NCBI GenBank assembly: GCA_900556665.1
Contig: USPX01000060.1
Coordinates: forward strand, 1 to 9,577
Direction of reading: 5' to 3'
From: an uncultured Eubacteriales bacterium
GTDB lineage: Bacteria; Bacillota_A; Clostridia; Lachnospirales; Cellulosilyticaceae
DNA: 9,577 nt
Position 1 is the stretch's first letter, and the number at the start of each line of letters is the position of its first letter. The notes beneath the pieces were generated by a model. The model made no database searches. It had not been told where the DNA came from and saw only the letters and a program-made list of their open reading frames with translations. This document shows, in pieces, positions 1 through 9,222 of the stretch. The position numbers were made by a program, and so were the translations under genes.

Positions 1-427
1 TTTCCCTTCTGCTCTCCCTTCTGCTCTCCCTTCTTCTCTCCCTTCTTCTCTCCCTTCTTCAAAGTTGATTCTATCTCTTTCAAAAAGTGTCATATATTCC
101 ACCTCCATCGTTTTATCATGTTTTACATTGTTTACTTTTTGGTTAATTGCCTTTACTAAGTTACTTCTTGAACTTTCTGCCACTTCATCTGTAGACTGAA
201 CTATATAGTTAAGAAAATCTAACTGCTTTACTATCTAATAATATATCTATAACCTTTTGTTCTTCAGGCATTTTAATCTCTTTAATTTGAATATCTAGGA
301 TTTTTTCAATCACCTTTTTACAGATATTCTTATCACTCATTACCTTTGCAAATAAGAAGTCATCCTCTAAATTAAGCTCTTGTAATGTCTTTTGTTTTTT
401 TCTTTTATTATATTCTTTTGCTCCCAT
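1..427 (-). pseudogene. Rpn-family (PD-(D/E)XK nuclease/transposase-like) gene, core deleted, runs off left edge
   Basis: Remnant of a recombination-promoting nuclease (Rpn) family gene. It starts at ATG 427-425 behind a good ribosome-binding site (AAAGGAGA). The first 68 codons read as the family N-terminus, with FLFAKVMSDK early on and then IDILLDSKAVR, and stop at 211-209. In another frame, from about position 222 to the window edge, the family C-terminal part resumes: LDFLNYI, then YMTLFERDRINFEEGR, then repeated EGR units. The nuclease core that should lie between SKAVR and LDFLNYI, normally over 100 residues with the catalytic Asp/Glu/Lys, is absent, and the two parts are out of frame across about 217-225. 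This points to one internal deletion rather than a stop mutation. Intact family members are linked to RecA-independent recombination and DNA cleavage; this copy cannot be a nuclease. The 3' end lies outside the window. Family call is confident. Confidence 0.82.
3..60 (-). repeat. 12-bp tandem repeat encoding an EGR-rich tail
   Basis: Almost five head-to-tail 12-bp units (plus strand TCCCTTCTGCTC twice, then TCCCTTCTTCTC twice, then a partial TCCCTTCTTC). Read on the minus strand in the C-terminal frame of the Rpn remnant they encode EEGR, EEGR, EEGR, AEGR, then AEGK at the edge. EGR/EGK-rich tails of variable length are typical of this protein family. The array continues to the window edge, so the full copy number is unknown. 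Confidence 0.9.
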
Positions 428-464
428 TAGAGTCTCCTTTATAGCAAAACTATCTTATGATTTT

Positions 465-493
465 AGTATACCCAAAAATACTGTTCTTTTAAA
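465..493 (-). promoter_or_regulatory. Candidate sigma-A promoter of the Rpn remnant
   Basis: On the minus strand, -35 TTTAAA (493-488) and -10 TATACT (470-465) are separated by 17 bases. The -10 has five of six consensus bases and the -35 has four. The expected transcript start near 458 leaves a leader of about 30 bases to the ATG at 427. Called from sequence alone in an AT-rich gap, so it could be fortuitous. Confidence 0.42.
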
Positions 494-562
494 GTATATA
501 TTTTATCATCTCAATAATGGATACCCCATACTTACTTTATATAAAGACCCCAATTTTAAGTA

Positions 563-615
563 TGTACCGCCCCCCAATAGTTAGATTTTAAGTCTAACTA
601 TTGGGGGTAACTACA
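563..615. mobile_element. 53-bp inverted-repeat element with IS150-like tips and GTA target duplication
   Basis: A perfect 15-bp inverted repeat (571-585 against 593-607, CCCCCAATAGTTAGA) encloses a 7-base loop. Outside it, after 4 unmatched bases on each side, TGTA (563-566) pairs with TACA (612-615), giving 5'-TG...CA-3' outer ends. GTA occurs directly on both sides (560-562 and 616-618), as a 3-bp target duplication would. The outer tip, TGTACCGCCCCCC followed by AGTTAGA, resembles ends of IS150-group IS3-family elements as I remember them. No transposase is present, so this is either an internally deleted IS reduced to its two tips or a tiny MITE. It lies 72 bp past the stop of the Pnkp-like gene and could also fold in that transcript, but neither side has a T-run directly after the stem. 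Confidence 0.55.
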
Positions 616-687
616 GTATATCGGAGCCTTTTTTAATATCGTACCTTATTCTTAAAGTACAACACCTATAAAATTCAATAAATTCCC

Positions 688-1896
688 CTATACAATAGGC
701 TTTGTAGATTCATAATAAGTTGCCCTTGCCTTCACATCTACAATCTCTTGTTCAGGATATCTAAAAGCTGTTAATTTCCCACCATACACACAACCTGTAT
801 CAATATTAATGGTATAGTTATTCATTCTAGGATTTAATCTTGGAGTATGACCATAAACTACTAACGCTTTTCCTTTATAATGCTCACTCCAATCTAATCT
901 TATAGGAAATCCATGTTCATCAAACTTACCAGTTGTCTCTCCAAACATTGCCAAATCTTTTATAGCCTTGGACTCTCTACCATGAAGATGTTCTTTGAGC
1001 CCCGCATGTGCCACCACCAATTTGCCTTCATCAAATACATAATGACTTACTAAGCCATCTAAAAAAGCGCTTAACTTCTTTATAAATTCCTCAGGCTCCT
1101 TCTCAAGCTGCTTTAGGGTTGCCTCTAATCCATGAATCACTTTGACATTAGCACCATGTAATTTACGTTGCAATTTGCTATCATGATTACCCATAACAGT
1201 ATATGCTGTTCCCGCTGCCACCATATGCATTACAAGCTTTAATACTTCTACTATTTTAGGACCTCTATCTACAAGGTCCCCGCAAAACACAACTGTTCTC
1301 CCTGATTTGTTAGTTACCTTATAGTTTGCAGCATCCACTTCATAACCTAGTTTTTCTAATAACTCACAAAGTTCATCATAACACCCATGTACGTCTCCAA
1401 TAAGGTCAAAAGGCCCCTTTAAATCTCTTTTGTTATTACTTAGTTTAACCCGTTTCACAGTAACTTTATCTAACTCAGACGGCATATTGACTTTATACAC
1501 TTGCTTAAAGCCCATTTTATTTAGTTTTTCCACCCTTTGTAACACTTCTTTGCTTTCATTTGTACTTTCCTTTGTGACCAAAATGCCTATAGGTGTTACA
1601 TGATACTTTTTACCAAGCGTGATAATCTGTTTACTTTCCTGCTCATCTGTAAAAGATATATAAATTGCCGCTAACTGCCCCAACTTAAGTCTTCTTCCCA
1701 CCTTCTTTTCCTCTGCTATGCTAAAGACTTCTTCCTTCCTAAAATACTTTTTAGCAAATAATGCTTGATTACTTAAATCGTCACCTATGATAGCAACGAC
1801 AGATAACTCTGGGACATGTATTTCCATATGTTTTACGCTCCTATCTGTCATTTTATTCATAGTATGTGCAAATTTACTATGTTTATTGGTATCCAT
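688..1896 (-). CDS. Pnkp-like metallophosphatase with degenerate kinase domain, no ligase domain
   Basis: Related to bacterial Pnkp, the RNA end-healing and sealing enzyme (kinase-phosphatase-ligase, about 870 residues in C. thermocellum). Residues about 161-402 are a binuclear metallophosphatase with every signature residue: GDVHG (Asp168, His170), GDLVDRG (Asp207, Arg211), GNHD (Asn237), AHAG (His297), GHTP (His350), NIDTG (Asp366). It should release phosphate from RNA 2',3' ends or nucleotides. Residues 24-150 align with the Pnkp kinase domain (MEIHVPELSVVAIIG), but the P-loop GxxGxGKS reads GDDLSNQA, and the segments with the catalytic Asp and lid arginines are missing. The protein ends where the ligase would begin. 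Start: ATG 1896 follows GGGGA at 4 bases. Met24 (1827) matches the family N-terminus and follows AGGAG (1838-1842), 10 bases away, and may be the true start. Alternative: a PrpE-type Ap4A hydrolase, though those lack the N-terminal region. Sure of the phosphatase; the substrate is inferred. Confidence 0.88.
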   Translation of the reverse strand: MDTNKHSKFAHTMNKMTDRSVKHMEIHVPELSVVAIIGDDLSNQALFAKKYFRKEEVFSIAEEKKVGRRLKLGQLAAIYISFTDEQESKQIITLGKKYHVTPIGILVTKESTNESKEVLQRVEKLNKMGFKQVYKVNMPSELDKVTVKRVKLSNNKRDLKGPFDLIGDVHGCYDELCELLEKLGYEVDAANYKVTNKSGRTVVFCGDLVDRGPKIVEVLKLVMHMVAAGTAYTVMGNHDSKLQRKLHGANVKVIHGLEATLKQLEKEPEEFIKKLSAFLDGLVSHYVFDEGKLVVAHAGLKEHLHGRESKAIKDLAMFGETTGKFDEHGFPIRLDWSEHYKGKALVVYGHTPRLNPRMNNYTINIDTGCVYGGKLTAFRYPEQEIVDVKARATYYESTKPIV

Positions 1897-1941
1897 TTAA
1901 TCCCCAGTAATTGACTACTATCACAAAAGACTGTTTTCTTA

Positions 1942-2189
1942 TTAGTTTTTTACGATTTTTTGCTTCTCAAGCTGTTTCTTTAACTTATTTCTCCCCCTAA
2001 AAAGTAGGGTTTTCGCAGCACCTTCTTTGATATGTAATTGTTCACTTATGAGCTTAATGGGCAGTTCATCAAAATAATAGGCCATTAGTACCAAACTATA
2101 TTTTCCTCATAACCAACTAGTTTTAAAAGATACCGGTAAACTTTACAATAATACGTTTCATAGAGATTTTCAAAAGCTGACTTCATCAT
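1942..2189 (-). pseudogene. ECF sigma-70 factor gene, middle deleted, frameshifted
   Basis: Two pieces of an extracytoplasmic-function sigma factor in different frames. From ATG 2189, 34 codons read as region 2.1 (MMKSAFENLYETYYCKVYRY, then LLKLVGYEE) and stop at 2087-2085. From 2085 the other frame gives a 47-residue region 4 helix-turn-helix: MAYYFDELPIKLISEQLHIK, EGAAKTLLFRGRNKL, then a basic tail ending at TAA 1944-1942. Regions 2.2 to 4.1, roughly 80-90 residues carrying the -10 recognition helices, are missing, so it cannot act as a normal sigma factor. Stop and start overlap as TAATG, so the region 4 peptide could be made by translational coupling. The gene begins 4 bases after the stop of the zinc-finger/signal-peptidase gene, the expected partner. 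An intact family member would be about 160 residues. Confidence 0.82.
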
Positions 2190-2193
2190 CTTG

Positions 2194-2937
2194 CTACCTA
2201 CTTTCTAGCTCGGCTATTTCCGGCTGCATGACGCTTTGTTCCTCTAATAAAATAACTTTACCTTTTATATTAGTTCTTTTAAAAGGCCCATAATGCCGAC
2301 TATCACAAGCACTCTCTACATAATCTCCCATAATAAAATATTCATTTTCATCAAGTACCGTATTTAACTTCTCTTTTTCTTCTCCTGAACCTAAATCTCG
2401 TAATAATACCTCTTGCTGGCTATAACGTTCATAAAGCTCATCATTCACATAAAGTTTCCCCTCTTTAATCACAATATGATCTCCTGGACAACCAATAATT
2501 CTACCTATGGCATTATACATATATTGTGGATTGTTATAATAAATCACATCATCTTTCTGAGGATTTGCAAATGCATATGCCTTCTTATTAATGACACACA
2601 TATCTCCTACATTGATAACAGGCTTCATTGACGTTGATACCATTTTCGTTATCTGAAAAAAACTATTAAAGGTAATTAAAAGTATGGAGAATATGGCTAA
2701 GCCTTTTAGCAAAAAAAATCGCTTTCTTACCCTTAACTTAGAAGCAGCTTTTACATAACAAGCTTCCTGCATCTTCTTTTTTTGTTCATTCTCAGTTTTA
2801 GCCTGCGCATAATATATTTTACATGACTCACAGCCTTCTACATGAGCTTCAATTACCTTTTTAGTCACTTCAGAGACTTCTTCTTTTTCATACAAAGGAC
2901 ATAAATCCCTAATCACTTCACATGCTATTTCCTTCAC
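2194..2937 (-). CDS. Zinc-finger anti-sigma-like / signal peptidase I-like fusion membrane protein
   Basis: 247 residues in three parts. Residues 1-45 are a zf-HC2 anti-sigma zinc-binding motif: Cys6, then AHVEGCESC with His32, Cys36, Cys39. Residues 74-97 form one membrane helix. Residues 98-235 are a signal peptidase I (S26) domain: STSMKP (nucleophile Ser103), DDVIYY, GRIIGCPGD, GDYVESACDSRHYG. Topology is presumably zinc finger in the cytoplasm, peptidase fold outside. The general-base Lys, which should directly precede Arg146 (VKRIIG in the family), is Gly145 (codon 2505-2503). The box E consensus GDNRxxSxDSR is also altered (Tyr206, Val207, Ala210), so normal catalysis is doubtful. Start is GTG 2937-2935, with GGGGAG nine bases upstream. 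The adjoining ECF sigma gene supports an anti-sigma role: a membrane sensor that may bind rather than cleave extracytoplasmic signals. That role is inferred. Confidence 0.83.
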   Translation of the reverse strand: MKEIACEVIRDLCPLYEKEEVSEVTKKVIEAHVEGCESCKIYYAQAKTENEQKKKMQEACYVKAASKLRVRKRFFLLKGLAIFSILLITFNSFFQITKMVSTSMKPVINVGDMCVINKKAYAFANPQKDDVIYYNNPQYMYNAIGRIIGCPGDHIVIKEGKLYVNDELYERYSQQEVLLRDLGSGEEKEKLNTVLDENEYFIMGDYVESACDSRHYGPFKRTNIKGKVILLEEQSVMQPEIAELESR

Positions 2938-3016
2938 CTTTAATCGCTCCCCTACTACTTTTTACTCATGAGTTATATATTAGTACCTCTATCTAGGAGA
3001 AAGGTTTCACTTTCTT

Positions 3017-3045
3017 CTTATATTCCTACATTATATTATTGTCAT
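3017..3045 (-). promoter_or_regulatory. Candidate promoter of the zinc-finger/signal-peptidase, sigma, Pnkp-like cluster
   Basis: Minus strand: -35 ATGACA (3045-3040), 17-base spacer, -10 TATAAG (3022-3017), five of six consensus bases in each box. The start expected near 3010 gives a leader of about 70 bases before GTG 2937. It lies just downstream of the terminator at 3097-3136, so the cluster is probably transcribed on its own. I see no ECF-type AAC motif here. Confidence 0.48.
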
Positions 3046-3096
3046 GGGTTATTTTATCTTTTTACAATATTTAAAATCACTTTATCTATATGTAAT

Positions 3097-3136
3097 AAAA
3101 AAGGTATAAGCCCCGTACTAGGCTTATACCTTTTTA
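3097..3136 (-). terminator. Intrinsic terminator after the SLH surface-protein gene
   Basis: GGTATAAGCC (3103-3112) pairs perfectly with GGCTTATACC (3121-3130) around an 8-base loop, flanked by A6 (3097-3102) and T5 (3131-3135). On the minus strand the stem is followed by six Ts. It begins 8 bases after the stop codon at 3147-3145. The A/T flanks would let it work in both directions. Confidence 0.92.
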
Positions 3137-3144
3137 TTCTCATA

Positions 3145-6100
3145 TTATACTTCTACTCTTATATCAATTAAATCAGCTTTTTGAAGCATACGAAGCACGA
3201 CTGTCATACTTTCTGCTCTTGTAATTGTACTTTGTGGACGAAGCTTATTATTTGAACCGATAATTAAGTCACTTCCTATGTTAAATGCCACTGCATCCTT
3301 AGCCCATTCACTTACTTTGCTATAATCTTCAAATGCTTCTAATTGACCTTTTTCACCTTTGAGTTGTGCTACCTTTGCTGCTCTTTGCATCATAGCCATA
3401 GCTTCTTCTCTTGTAATTGTTTTATTTGGTGCAAACTGATCCTCTGATATTCCTTTTATAATCTTATATTGATAAGCTGCTCCAATTTCTCCCAAATAAC
3501 TTGAACTTTTTGCTACATCCTTGAAGCAATCTGCGCCTTCAGGTGCTTGTGGTAAACCTAAAGCATTTACTAAAAGTGCTGCAAATTCTGCTCTTGTAAT
3601 AGCCTTGTCCCCTTGAATAGCATTGCCTTCTTCCAAGCACTTTGTAATCATTCGGCTACCTAATTCATTTGCTACTTCTTCATACCATTTTCCTGCTGCA
3701 TCACTATAATTTACTTTATTTTCAATGAGAATATAATTTTCACCTACTAGACTATTCACCTGTACAAAATACTTATTATCTTCTTGATAAACATTAGTAG
3801 GTATGTGATACATTCTACCATCTTTTCCAATAATCACTGCTGTTGTAATGCCTTCAGCTTCTTTAGCAGTTACTTCTGTATTTCTTGCAACATATGTATT
3901 AAATGTATCAAGCTTTATTGCTTTACCATTTACCATAGCTTGTATTTCAAATGTCATTGGCACATTTATCATCGTATATTGATCTTTAATATGTTTCTCA
4001 AGCTGGTCTATTGTTTCCTGAGTTGTTTTCTCAAAAATCATCTCTACTTGAATATCTTTTAAACTATCTTGTCCTAATGCTTTAGATACCTTAGCTACAT
4101 CTATGGCACTTGTTGGCACTGTATAAACTGCTTTTTGATTTTCTATTTTAAGTAAAATAAACTTATCTGCCATATCTTTGACATTCTGTAAATTAAGCTG
4201 TGCTTTAACGATATTCGTTGTAGCCGTAATTGGCATTATAACTTCTGAACCGCTAGGTGCCTCTTTAATCTTAGCAGTAAACTCAAATTGATCTACTGTA
4301 AAAATAGTTTCTTCTCCTGAAACTTTTTGATTGCCAATGTTATAGCGCTTTTTATCAATGATAACTATTGATGAATTTTGAGCTGTGGTATTTTGCGTAG
4401 AATGAGATGATGAGCTAGAAGATGTACTTGGGCTTGTTTCTTTTATTTCTTTACACCACTTTGCATATAAACAAGTAGATGTTGTAATGCTTGTAGAGTC
4501 TGTATATAATGTTCCTTTTCCTTGTGGCTCAGTATACCATCCTTCAAACTTATAAGCTGACCTTGTTGTTATTGGCATTTTCACTGTCTCTTTAATTGGT
4601 ACTTCCATATCCTGAACATGGCTTCCACCTTGGCTATCAAAATGTAAGGTGGCCGTCAAGATTGGCCTATCAGTTACACTAATAGATTGCACGGCAACTT
4701 TTGTTACCTCTGCTTCTGTATAGCTCACTGTAATTTCTTGATTCGCTTTAGTTAACCCACCCTTTGGTGAATAACTACATTGGGCTGTAACATCTTTTAT
4801 CGTCCCATCATTATAATAAGCTTTTACAATCATTCCTGCCTGCTCAAAACTTTCTCCAGTATAGTAGCTTAGTTTATTAGGCTTATTTTCAATTTTTAGT
4901 TCTATTAATTGTTTATCTATATAGTTAGCTGTTACTGTGACATCTTTGTCAGGCATGTTAAATGTTGTTTCTGCACTATTTGCATCTGCAAATGTTACAT
5001 CTTTAGATGTCCACTTATCAAACACTTTTCCCTCTGGAGCTGGATTTGCCTTAATTGTTACAATAGTATCTTCCTCTGCTTTACTGTCTGCCATTTCTGC
5101 CCACCCATTTTCTACTGTAATACCATGTGCTAATCCCTTAATACTAAATGCCGCTACAGCCTTAGCACCATTACTTGTAATTTCTGCATAGTAATGTCCT
5201 TTTTCTTTTGGTGCTGATTCAAGTTTTATTCCTCCAGTAGTGGTTCTTTCTGTTTCTACTTGATAGAAACTTACCTGTGACTTTTCTAAATTACTTTTTG
5301 TAATAGCATTATATGTGTCTATTCCTTCTAACGTAATACCTGAATAAGCTTCACCTGAATAAATTGCATCATTAGCTAATAAGGTTACTGCAATAGCGTT
5401 ACTTCTTCCATAATATTCACATTCAGAGGCACCCTGTGTTTCATCACAATATGCCAAAATCTTATTACCTTGACTTATATAATTGTAATGATGTTCATGC
5501 TTCACATTAGGATTAATTCCATTCTCTACATCTTCCATATTTTTTGCAGAGTTTGATAAAAATTTTCCCCATAATTCCTGTGCAGACTGTAATTGAGCAG
5601 GTGTATGGAGCATGTTGCTCCTTCTATGCCACCAGTTTATATCTGACATTACAGTTATACGTCCTTTTTGAACTGGAAAATCTACAATAAAAGGATATTT
5701 TTTGTTTACAGTTGTGGCAATAACTTGTGCATCTCCACTATAAGTAATCTCTCCAATTGCCCTATACTCAAGTTCATTTCCTACAAGATCTTTACCACCC
5801 ATTATATCTGAATCTTTATTTATAATGGCATTACCCATATCGTCGTCATTAATTGTAATTTGAACCGTTACACCTAATTGTTTTGCAAAATCTAATAATA
5901 CTTTATTTTCATATCTCGCAAAACCATCCCTTTCTCCCTGTAATACAACTCGCCCACCAGCATTAACATAATTTTTTAATGCACTTACATCAGTATCTGT
6001 TAATGATTCGTATGGCATCAACACAATAATTAGGCCATATTGTGATAAATCTTCGGTACCCATAAAATGCTGAGGATTATCTTGGGTACCTACTTTTAAA

Positions 6101-6504: not shown

Positions 6505-8925
6505 TTAGCGAACAACGATGTTCATAATTTTACCTTTGATGTAAATTTCTTTTACAATTGTTTTTCCTTCAATAAAGGCTGCAACTGATGGTACTTGTTT
6601 TGCTTTTGCTTTAGCTGATTCTTCTTCTTCATCTGCTGCAAGCTCTACTGTACCTCTTAATTTACCGTTTACTTGTACACCGATTTCAACAGTATCTTCT
6701 ACCATAGCAGCTTCATCATATTTTGGCCACTCAGCAGTTGCGATAGATTCATTATGACCGTACATTTCCCATAATTCTTCCCCAATGTGTGGACATACGC
6801 AAGATAACATTTTAATGAATCCTTCAGCGTATTCTCTTGGGCAAGTGCCAGCTTTCATCGCTGTATTTACGAAAATCATAAGTTGACTGATCGCTGTATT
6901 GAAACCTAATGTTTCATAGTCATTTGTAACTTTTTTAACTGTTTGGTGGTATACCTTAGTAAGTGTACCATCATTTTCTTCTGTAATATGGCTTTCATCA
7001 GCGAAGAAGTTCCATACTCTGTTGATGAATCTTCTAGCACCTTCTACACCTTGATCGCTCCATGGTTTAGAAGCTTCTAAAGCACCCATGAACATTTCAT
7101 ATAAACGAAGTGTATCTGCACCGTATTTATCAACGATATCACTTGGGTTAACAACGAATTCAGGGAAACGTTTACCCATTTTGATACCATTTGAACCGAG
7201 AATCATACCTTGGTGAACAAGTTTTTTGAATGGTTCTTTAACTGGTGATAAACCTTTTTCATAAAGGTATCTGTTCCAGATTCTCGCATACATTAAGTGT
7301 CCTACTGCATGCTCTGGTCCACCAATGTAAAGATCAACTGGCATCCAGTGTTTTAAGAGTTCTTGATTTGCAAACTCATCTTCATTGTGTGGATCAATGT
7401 ATCTTAAGTAGTACCAACTTGAACCTGCACTACCTGGCATTGTAGAAGTTTCTCTCTTACCTTTTACACCATTGTGATCATAGTGTTTCCACTCTTCAGC
7501 ATTTTCAAGTGGCGCTTTACCATTTTTACCTTTGTAATCTTCAAGTTCAGGAAGTACTAATGGTAATTCAGCGTCATCAAGTACGTGAATGTTGCCGTTT
7601 TCTTCATAAACAACTGGTACTGGTTCACCCCAGTATCTTTGTCTTGCGAAGATCCATTCTCTGAAGTGGTAGTTTACGCGTGTGCGGGCAATACCCATTG
7701 CTACTACTTTATCTGTAATCGCTTTTTTAGCTTCTTCTACTGTCATACCTGTAAATTCTTCTGAATTCATAAGTTTGCAGCCTTTTCCAAGGTATTCACC
7801 TTTTTCAAATGCTTTTTCACTTACATCCCCTTCAATAACTTGGATCATTGGAATGTTGTGAGAGATCGCATATTCATAGTCTCTTTGGTCGTGACATGGC
7901 ACAGCCATAACTGCACCTGTACCATAGCTTGCAAGTACGAAGTCTCCGATAAATACTGGTACTTCTTTACCATTTACAGGGTTAATTGCATAAATCCCTT
8001 TTAACTGGCAACCTGATTTTGTTTTATTAAGTTGTGTACGGTCCATATCGTTTTTCTTTAATGTTTCATCGATATAAGCTTGTACTTCTTCTTTGTTTTC
8101 GATTCTAGGCATTAATTCTTGTACAAGTTTTCCGTCTGGCGCAAGTACCATGAATGTAATACCGTAGATTGTTTCAATACATGTTGTAAAGATTGAGAAG
8201 TCTCCACCACCAACGATTTTGAAGTCAACCTCAACACCTTCAGATTTACCAATCCAGTTTCTTTGCATATCTTTTGTAGATTGTGGCCAGTCGATTTCAT
8301 CTAAACCTTCTAAAAGTTTTTCAGCAAATGCTACTTGGTCGATAACCCATTGTTTCATGTTTTTACGAACAACAGGGAAGCCACCTCTTTCAGATTTACC
8401 ATCGATTACTTCGTCGTTTGATAATACTGTCCCTAATTCTTCACACCAGTTTACAGGCATGTCCACGTATTTTGCATAACCATCAAGGTATAATTGTTTG
8501 AAAATCCATTGTGTCCATTTGTAGAATGATGCATCACTTGTAGCGATTTGTTTAGACCAGTCATAGTCGAAACCAAGTTCTTTAAGTTGTTTGTTGAAGT
8601 TACCAATGTTTGTTTGTGTGAAACCATTTGGATGATTTCCTGTACTTACTGCATATTGTTCAGCTGGAAGACCAAATGAATCATATCCCATTGGGTGTAA
8701 TACATTGTAACCTTGCATTCTTTTCATTCTTGAAATGATATCTGTAGCTGTATATCCTTCTGGATGTCCTGCATGTAAACCTACCCCTGATGGATATGGG
8801 AACATGTCTAATACATAATATTTAGGTTTTGAGAAATCCCAAACATCTGTTTTAAATGTTTGATTATCTTCCCAATATTTCTGCCATTTTGGTTCAATAT
8901 CTTTTGGATTATATATTCTTTCCAT
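6505..8925 (-). CDS. leuS: Leucyl-tRNA synthetase
   Basis: Class I synthetase charging tRNA-Leu with leucine in the cytoplasm. Numbered from the start chosen here (806 residues): HAGH at 51-54 (HIGH motif), CP1 editing domain about 215-410 with GTGAVMAVPCHDQRDYEYA (Asp346), FREWIFARQRYWGEP near 421-435, WYYLRYIDP near 504-512, anticodon-binding domain from about 620, and the C-terminal NGKLRGTV segment. The usual KMSKS loop reads KMGKR (582-586) and the editing motif TTRPDT reads TTCIET (247-252). The zinc-binding cysteines after VNWC are lacking. Start: the frame extends to ATG 8955, but ATG 8925 has GGAGG (8931-8935) at 5 bases and MERIYNPKDIEPKWQKYW is the normal family N-terminus. Controlled by the T-box directly upstream and ended by its own terminator. 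Certain as LeuRS despite the motif changes. Confidence 0.97.
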   Translation of the reverse strand: MERIYNPKDIEPKWQKYWEDNQTFKTDVWDFSKPKYYVLDMFPYPSGVGLHAGHPEGYTATDIISRMKRMQGYNVLHPMGYDSFGLPAEQYAVSTGNHPNGFTQTNIGNFNKQLKELGFDYDWSKQIATSDASFYKWTQWIFKQLYLDGYAKYVDMPVNWCEELGTVLSNDEVIDGKSERGGFPVVRKNMKQWVIDQVAFAEKLLEGLDEIDWPQSTKDMQRNWIGKSEGVEVDFKIVGGGDFSIFTTCIETIYGITFMVLAPDGKLVQELMPRIENKEEVQAYIDETLKKNDMDRTQLNKTKSGCQLKGIYAINPVNGKEVPVFIGDFVLASYGTGAVMAVPCHDQRDYEYAISHNIPMIQVIEGDVSEKAFEKGEYLGKGCKLMNSEEFTGMTVEEAKKAITDKVVAMGIARTRVNYHFREWIFARQRYWGEPVPVVYEENGNIHVLDDAELPLVLPELEDYKGKNGKAPLENAEEWKHYDHNGVKGKRETSTMPGSAGSSWYYLRYIDPHNEDEFANQELLKHWMPVDLYIGGPEHAVGHLMYARIWNRYLYEKGLSPVKEPFKKLVHQGMILGSNGIKMGKRFPEFVVNPSDIVDKYGADTLRLYEMFMGALEASKPWSDQGVEGARRFINRVWNFFADESHITEENDGTLTKVYHQTVKKVTNDYETLGFNTAISQLMIFVNTAMKAGTCPREYAEGFIKMLSCVCPHIGEELWEMYGHNESIATAEWPKYDEAAMVEDTVEIGVQVNGKLRGTVELAADEEEESAKAKAKQVPSVAAFIEGKTIVKEIYIKGKIMNIVVR

Positions 8926-8970
8926 AACTGCCTCCGTCATTTTCTTATTATGCACAAAAGTTTTACAAAT

Positions 8971-9016
8971 AAAAAATCCTTCCGCCTCCTTATTAACAAT
9001 AAAGAGACGAAAGGAT
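8971..9016 (-). terminator. T-box regulated terminator hairpin
   Basis: Minus strand ATCCTTTCGTCTCT (9016-9003) pairs, with three G-U pairs, to GGAGGCGGAAGGAT (8989-8976), followed by TTTTT (8975-8971). It competes with the antiterminator, which needs the CTCT of its 5' arm. It ends about 45 bases before the leuS start at 8925. Confidence 0.9.
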
Positions 9017-9222
9017 ATAAATCCGTCCGCGGTACCACTCTCATTCAGGCATGGGCCTGCACTTGATTTTTATAACGGAAAATACCCGCCAAAGCCTACT
9101 TGATTTCAACCTTGGAGCTCCTAGACGAGTTCAATGCTATACTTTACTATCTCACACCAACTGATAGCTCTCTGAAAAAGATATACACACCTACTACTTC
9201 TATTCTACGCTTTTGTACATTT
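8971..9222 (-). promoter_or_regulatory. Leucine-specific T-box riboswitch leader of leuS
   Basis: In transcript order: S-turn AGTA (about 9198-9192), AG-bulge AGAGAGC (9173-9167), distal loop GTTGGTG (9161-9155), then GAA followed by specifier CTC (9129-9127), a Leu codon. Next comes the closing side GGAGCTCC, then the T-box GAGTGGTACCGCGG (9040-9027) with bulge TGGT (9037-9034), complementary to the ACCA end of tRNA-Leu, and a terminator. Uncharged tRNA-Leu should read CTC with its GAG anticodon and hold the antiterminator (AGAG of the T-box with CTCT at 9006-9003), switching leuS on under leucine starvation. The 5' end is set by the promoter at 9229-9257. Confidence 0.95.

Follow-up and report, generated by a model that had tools for sequence, protein, structure and literature searches.

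The phosphatase of bacterial Pnkp acts on 2',3'-cyclic phosphates, which it opens, and on 2'/3'-phosphates, which it removes. In the available text of PMC4411300, Pnkp is described as a heal-and-seal machine, with the Pnkp and Hen1 genes always in one operon. Here we analyze a reduced member of this family, encoded at positions 688 to 1896 (minus strand) of a 9,577-nucleotide stretch of DNA (the window; contig USPX01000060.1 of assembly GCA_900556665.1) from an uncultured Eubacteriales bacterium of the Cellulosilyticaceae. Its phosphatase is intact, while the kinase domain keeps its fold without the active site and no ligase follows. We assign a probability of about 0.5 to the reading that the protein is an orphan orthologue of bacterial Pnkp that arose by reductive evolution and whose role is RNA-end healing for disposal, with the pseudo-kinase as scaffold.

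The gene is a single open frame of 402 codons running from 1896 to 688, across a region where the plus strand is packed with stops. Judging from the sequence, translation probably starts at the Met24 codon at 1827. An AGGAG is located 10 nt upstream of this codon, and GGAG precedes the equivalent codon in nine of the ten relatives shown, including the full-length L096 (L002 has GGGG). Since this motif precedes the Met24 codon and is conserved in relatives, residues 1-23 are probably not translated. The parts of the gene, where pLDDT stands for the predicted local distance difference test, are:

688..1827, minus strand: likely true extent of the reduced Pnkp gene, 379 residues from Met24, plus the stop; AGGAG lies 5' of the start, and homologues P0002-P0004 begin here
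1828..1896, minus strand: in-frame upstream extension, residues 1-23, with pLDDT <50 for residues 1-21; contains the Shine-Dalgarno-like AGGAG
1838..1842, minus strand: AGGAG, probable ribosome-binding site for the Met24 start, from the sequence
1417..1827, minus strand: pseudo-kinase domain, residues 24-160, a Pnkp kinase fold without active site
1762..1785, minus strand: former P-loop, residues 38-45, GDDLSNQA; the motif's second Gly, Lys, and Ser are lost
1716..1717, minus strand: deletion point, residues 60/61, of the Asp38-Arg41 segment of intact Pnkp, from alignments; ~23-25 columns, edge uncertain
1560..1561, minus strand: deletion point near residues 112/113 of the arginine-bearing lid, from alignments; ~25 columns, edge uncertain
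691..1416, minus strand: intact calcineurin-type phosphatase domain, residues 161-402
688..690, minus strand: stop codon at the position where intact Pnkp runs on into the ligase, from the open frame and alignment

Both halves of the protein can be traced to Pnkp. The bacterial Pnkp model TIGR04075 scores it at 462.8 bits (E 2e-138), and its best match in the PDB is 4j6o, the C. thermocellum Pnkp phosphatase (E 9e-105), with 62% identity between the phosphatases in the structural match. The kinase-domain entries 4gp7, 4gp6, 4mde, and 4jst match at E 2e-9, and comparison of predicted structures places the N-terminal region in the Pnkp kinase fold, so the descent from Pnkp proposed in the original prediction stands for the N-terminal part and the phosphatase alike. 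The TIGR04075 score does not reach the equivalog cut-off of 750; P0047, the nearest kinase-intact relative (516 residues, extending into the ligase), scores 847.2. The protein resembles Pnkp at one active site, but because several features that define the TIGR04075 equivalog were looked for and found missing, it is not filed as a working Pnkp. The calcineurin-like phosphatase PF00149 is the only Pfam domain over cut-off (residues 162-352, E 1e-15). A kinase domain was not seen by Pfam at E up to 1, and the C-terminal ligase domain PF16542 is not present, the stop falling after the phosphatase.

Loss of the kinase site was followed through the residues that we take to carry the 5'-kinase roles in C. 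thermocellum Pnkp, namely the GxxxxGK[ST] P-loop, the catalytic Asp, Arg41, and the lid arginines, numbered as in P0049 and compared across 23 intact and 50 reduced rows. Gly20, Lys21, Ser22, Asp38, Arg41, Arg116, and Arg120 are present in all 23 intact rows and Arg123 in 22. Among the reduced rows, Gly20 and Ser/Thr22 are each kept in 6, Lys21 in 37, Arg41 in 1, Arg120 in 3, and Arg116 and Arg123 in none, while the Asp38 column, which lies at the deletion edge where the alignment is uncertain, holds D in 13. The window protein keeps 0 of the eight, and of the P-loop glycines the first alone remains. Its P-loop has turned into GDDLSNQA and VFSI passes directly to AEEKKVGRRLKLG, both exactly as the original prediction had them, and it was equally correct that the arginine lid is gone and that the stop falls at the start of the ligase. 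The predicted deletion of the catalytic Asp segment is also real, but at ~23-25 columns it is smaller than the 30 residues proposed; together with that of the lid, it is one of two deletions in the protein. When 225 rows (120 database matches, the window, and frames from loci, duplicates counted) were scanned for motifs, P-loop and Asp-Arg motif occurred together in 145, the P-loop alone in 2, an Asp-type match alone in 4, and neither in 74.

Two side observations concern kinase and phosphatase loss in other proteins. P0071, a Pnkp relative of 407 residues on a long branch, has the P-loop GCSSSGKT and the lid with the Asp/Arg segment deleted, and is perhaps an independent onset of kinase decay. 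Locus L143 of genome G249 (3207-4493, minus strand) encodes a 428-residue Pnkp frame with P-loop and SSD..R motif intact and no ligase in frame, whose phosphatase is damaged (GDFCGIDNK for GDLVDRGPK, GHHD for GNHD), a mirror image of the window protein.

The phosphatase site, by comparison, is complete. Asp168, His170, Asp207, Asn237, His297, His350, and Asp366 lie at the positions first given for them and show no variation across 46 aligned reduced sequences, window included. A second alignment has the same residues in 52/52 rows, except for Asp366 (51/52, one gap).

The reduced form is widespread among close relatives. A protein search scored 7996 candidates, and among the best 120, which were taken, 47 are of the reduced kind (P0001-P0046 and P0048); the source names include Cellulosilyticum, Niameybacter, and Cellulosilyticaceae. 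The N-domain is absent from P0053 and P0069; P0006 was entered without one, yet its whole sequence sits within the longer L082 frame of genome G006. Scanning genome contigs with two phosphatase peptides gave at least one clade member, L001, which is the one among the 80 loci retained. We built a tree of the phosphatase only, with 78 rows and support as bootstrap/Shimodaira-Hasegawa-like approximate likelihood ratio test (SH-aLRT), leaving out P0071, L101, L055, L069, and the divergent stand-alones L108-L112 of an earlier 87-row quick tree. The reduced rows group together at 97/90, nested among kinase-intact rows with the kinase-intact P0047 as sister at 100/99, which supports a conserved clade. 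Long forms make up one group (99/97), and short forms, with the N-domain-less pair nested among them, make up the other (98/96); the placement of whole-N-domain loss is weakly supported (76/77). The simplest reading of the order of events is that ligase and kinase site were lost once, that one deletion followed, and that the whole N-domain was lost once after that. An ancestor with kinase, phosphatase, and ligase would have lost the ligase and kinase site once, at the base of the Cellulosilyticum-group clade, while the phosphatase site stayed. A free-standing N-domain elsewhere was considered and rejected, as residues 24-167 used as sole query retrieved one 88-residue protein among 37 candidates.

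The two domains differ in how tightly they are held. The median ratio of N-domain to phosphatase distance is 2.69 in the reduced clade (1218 pairs) versus 1.22 in intact Pnkp (253 pairs), and in pairs matched for phosphatase divergence it is 2.61 (508) versus 1.23 (221). The ratio of nonsynonymous to synonymous substitution rates (dN/dS) of the N-domain was 0.28, 0.18, 0.25, 0.17, 0.25, and 0.13 by NG86, with values obtained for six of the seven pairs, and 0.45, 0.38, 0.24, and 0.36 by YN00 (four of seven). For the phosphatase it was 0.13, 0.08, 0.10, 0.10, and 0.11 by NG86 (five of seven) and 0.07-0.12 by YN00 (four of seven). Since every pair with a value has an N-domain dN/dS below 0.5, the dead kinase domain is under purifying selection, with a constraint about two- to fivefold weaker than that on the phosphatase. 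The claim that selection has kept only end-healing is thus not upheld, and a pseudogene is rejected on the dN/dS of both domains.

Partner genes were sought in 24 genomes of relatives, that of L001 (Cellulosilyticum sp. SIG270, 66% identity) and those of its family. Nine of these have a strong match to the reduced gene (G001, G002, G003, G006, G016, G018, G019, G020, and G021; the carriers). Eight are closed frames of 300-432 codons and the G003 frame is cut by a contig end; the G002 gene lacks the N-domain. The weak matches, one in G017 and an additional one in G021, belong to other phosphatases. No carrier has a strong Pnkp-type match other than the reduced gene; across the family, the Pnkp ligase domain PF16542 was found in 0/24 genomes and Hen1 over cut-off in 0/24, with weak Hen1 matches in 12. 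No Hen1-type domain was present in the six window frames scanned with Pfam. Among the controls, Deinobacterium chartae passes the ligase cut-off and 1 of 14 control genomes passes the Hen1 cut-off; in G080, from the same order, a Pnkp frame of 847 residues stands beside a Hen1 match of 659 bits, over cut-off, two bases lying between the matches. Among 392 genomes of the order searched at E up to 1e-75, 16 match, comprising the nine carriers, six frames of 847-968 residues, and G249 (428).

From its residues, the metal-dependent phosphatase would be expected to open 2',3'-cyclic phosphates and strip 2'/3'-phosphates from RNA ends, leaving a 3'-OH. Such ends may arise from cleavage by ribotoxins or by ribonucleases that need no metal. 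Because the genomes of relatives are without Pnkp ligase and Hen1, and mostly without a known RNA ligase, healing is probably not followed by sealing; instead, the ends would become accessible to 3'-to-5' decay, and the nucleotides would be recycled. The pseudo-kinase domain, which selection has maintained, is probably a dimerization or RNA-holding module; dimerization is a reasonable guess because in another variant, Pnkp1, the kinase domain is homodimeric according to the available text of PMC4411300. More tentatively, we propose an RNA-repair enzyme turned RNA-disposal enzyme, one that strips 2',3'-phosphates from broken RNA so that 3'-to-5' exonucleases, possibly a divergent ERI1-like neighbor, can destroy it, with the dead kinase as RNA-holding or dimerizing scaffold and with intermediates (partly decayed, deleted, gone) alive in sister species.

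This neighbor is a DEDDh exonuclease of ~247 residues, encoded back to back with the reduced gene in G001, G002, G003, and G021. It was assigned to PF00929 in the three copies scanned, and its best PDB matches by sequence are ERI1 exoribonucleases (E 6e-7); the G003 copy contains a stop. An all-against-all comparison found no other neighbor family common to these four genomes. A full orthologue is present in seven of the nine carriers and in 0/15 non-carriers, with a 21-residue piece in G017, and weaker matches included, 19 of the 24 family genomes have one; among the 80 loci retained it was seen in L001 only (tblastn, E up to 1e-4). We count the adjacency as suggestive only of a functional link, because the exonuclease is frequent across the order. 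In the long-form genomes G016, G018, G019, and G020, sbcD adjoins the reduced gene or lies at most four genes away (PF12320 in the copy scanned).

Other functions have to be weighed against RNA-end healing for disposal. A PrpE/ApaH-like enzyme would hydrolyze diadenosine tetraphosphate (Ap4A) or other dinucleoside polyphosphates, or remove NpnN caps from RNA. The PrpE model NF010148 scores the window protein at 241 bits, below its cut-off of 340; L103, the one stand-alone phosphatase of the order scanned with it, scores 348.4. A 100/100 branch of the tree separates the window protein from the PrpE-type stand-alones L102, L103, and L105-L107, of which L103 alone was PrpE-scored, and at nine of the ten columns that distinguish intact Pnkp from these stand-alones more than 90% of 52 reduced rows carry the Pnkp state (87% at the tenth). 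On these three grounds PrpE membership is rejected, and the protein does not fall into an already described PrpE-type family, in keeping with the original prediction. YqeK is a Gram-positive Ap4A hydrolase in the available text of PMC11857287, and since a YqeK-type match (TIGR00488) over cut-off already occurs in 22 of the 24 family genomes and eight of the nine carriers (the exceptions are G016 and G007), another Ap4A hydrolase would be superfluous in most of them; we consider a PrpE/ApaH-like function unlikely. The order's stand-alones L102, L103, and L105-L107 have GNHC instead of GNHD. More doubtful is that the protein still acts in RNA repair after ribotoxin cleavage, healing the 3' end and passing it on to enzymes of other, possibly unrecognized, families that supply kinase and ligase activity. 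RtcB uses 2',3'-cyclic phosphate, which the reduced enzyme would remove, and is found in nine family genomes, 1/9 carriers (G002, whose gene lacks the N-domain) versus 8/15 others, a near-exclusive pattern that kinship may explain. The ligase family PF09414 occurs in G018 only (1/9 carriers), which leaves seven of the nine carriers without any of the three ligase families. No RNA-ligase neighbor was recognized around the reduced genes, where some of the neighbors were scanned with Pfam. In favor of repair are the ligase proteins of G002 and G018 and the action of full Pnkp with Hen1 on ribotoxin-cut RNA, as given in the available text of PMC4411300.

That the gene, or at least its N-terminal half, is a relic drifting to loss without function is improbable. 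The stepwise loss inside the clade, ending in members without N-domain, and the faster evolution of this domain would fit decay, as would the five differences between the window protein and the near-identical P0001, at residues 6, 53, 57, 77, and 78, all before residue 79. Set against this are a frame that is open in 47 homologues among the best 120, the low dN/dS of the N-domain, and the strong conservation of the phosphatase. A regulator or decoy subunit for an intact Pnkp/Hen1 pair in the same genome is conceivable in that a kinase-fold surface could pair with full-length Pnkp. The original prediction had called the protein a paralogue and had offered such a regulatory role; with the reduced gene the sole strong match in 9/9 carriers, no ligase domain or Hen1 over cut-off in the 24 family genomes, and control genomes over both cut-offs, we reject both, and the regulator is the least probable of the functions considered, by our estimate very improbable. 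A phage or defense origin was also rejected, as the PHROGs matches were phosphatase, phosphoesterase, RNA-ligase, and one unnamed family, and PADLOC gave none for the protein.

Several points count against healing for disposal by a kinase-dead enzyme. The absence of partners is inferred from relatives, with the window's own genome outside the search, and that of ligases is drawn from three families in genomes of unstated completeness, with RtcB in G002 and the PF09414 protein in G018. The exonuclease is common in the order (221/392 genomes, E up to 1e-20), adjoins the reduced gene in four of nine carriers only, and is absent next to it in the window, so old synteny may account for the link. 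The dN/dS pairs share genomes and are not independent, and their dS, ~0.7 to 2.9, is near saturation. The long-form proteins P0007, P0034, and P0038 retain Lys21, Ser22, and Asp38 without Gly20, Arg41, and the lid arginines; their kinase appears decayed, but because these three residues are still present together, loss of activity there is less sure.

The window contains neither the exonuclease nor sbcD. Apart from the reduced gene, it has frames for a zinc-finger/signal-peptidase fusion and an SLH protein, together with leuS and fragments. The fusion (2194-2937, minus strand) is a 247-residue frame joining an anti-sigma-type zinc finger (PF13490) to a signal peptidase I domain (PF10502). Between it and the reduced Pnkp gene, at ~1946-2191 (minus strand), two pieces in different frames may, by eye, be parts of an extracytoplasmic function (ECF)-type sigma factor. 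At 1-427 (minus strand) there are fragments in two frames with an E/G/R repeat tail, which presumably resemble an Rpn/PD-(D/E)XK transposase-type protein; 209-427 has no Pfam match. Downstream of the reduced gene, 571-607 holds an 18-bp inverted repeat, 94% complementary with one base between the arms, and a search of 400-3200 gave no terminator-like site. A T-box leader (RF00230, 136.6 bits; 9000-9216, minus strand) lies upstream of leuS, which spans 6505-8955 on the minus strand.

Among the best matches in open-licence literature, we recognized no work on kinase-dead bacterial Pnkp by title or start of abstract. In the reduced clade healing is conserved while sealing is absent. The phosphatase should therefore have its own role, and the clade offers a natural system for asking what 2',3'-phosphate removal does in cells. 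Its graded series, from the kinase-intact sister through partly decayed and deleted forms to those with the N-domain gone, traces the birth of a selection-held pseudo-enzyme domain.

PrpE (NF010148, bis(5'-nucleosyl)-tetraphosphatase) resembles the window protein in belonging to the same phosphatase superfamily and in having a lone phosphatase as sole active unit, while the window protein differs in its kinase-fold N-domain, its place on the Pnkp side of the tree and in the discriminating columns, and its score below the PrpE cut-off. The Pnkp1-Rnl-Hen1 system is likewise a kinase-phosphatase without ligase domain, but in the available text of PMC4411300 the kinase of Pnkp1 is still active, its phosphatase belongs to a different superfamily, and separate Rnl and Hen1 proteins are its partners. 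Ligase-less Pnkp of other bacteria, found in 4 of the 80 loci (L041, L074, L079, and L080; frames of 426-434 codons, with no ligase in these loci by tblastn with two ligase queries), also ends after the phosphatase and differs in its intact kinase motifs. Compared with bacterial Pnkp itself (TIGR04075; C. thermocellum 4j6o, 4gp7, 4jst), the window protein has lost the P-loop, Asp/Arg segment, lid arginines, and ligase, and none of the family genomes searched has a Hen1 that passes the cut-off; the domain order, N-terminal kinase fold, phosphatase catalytic residues, and common descent are shared.
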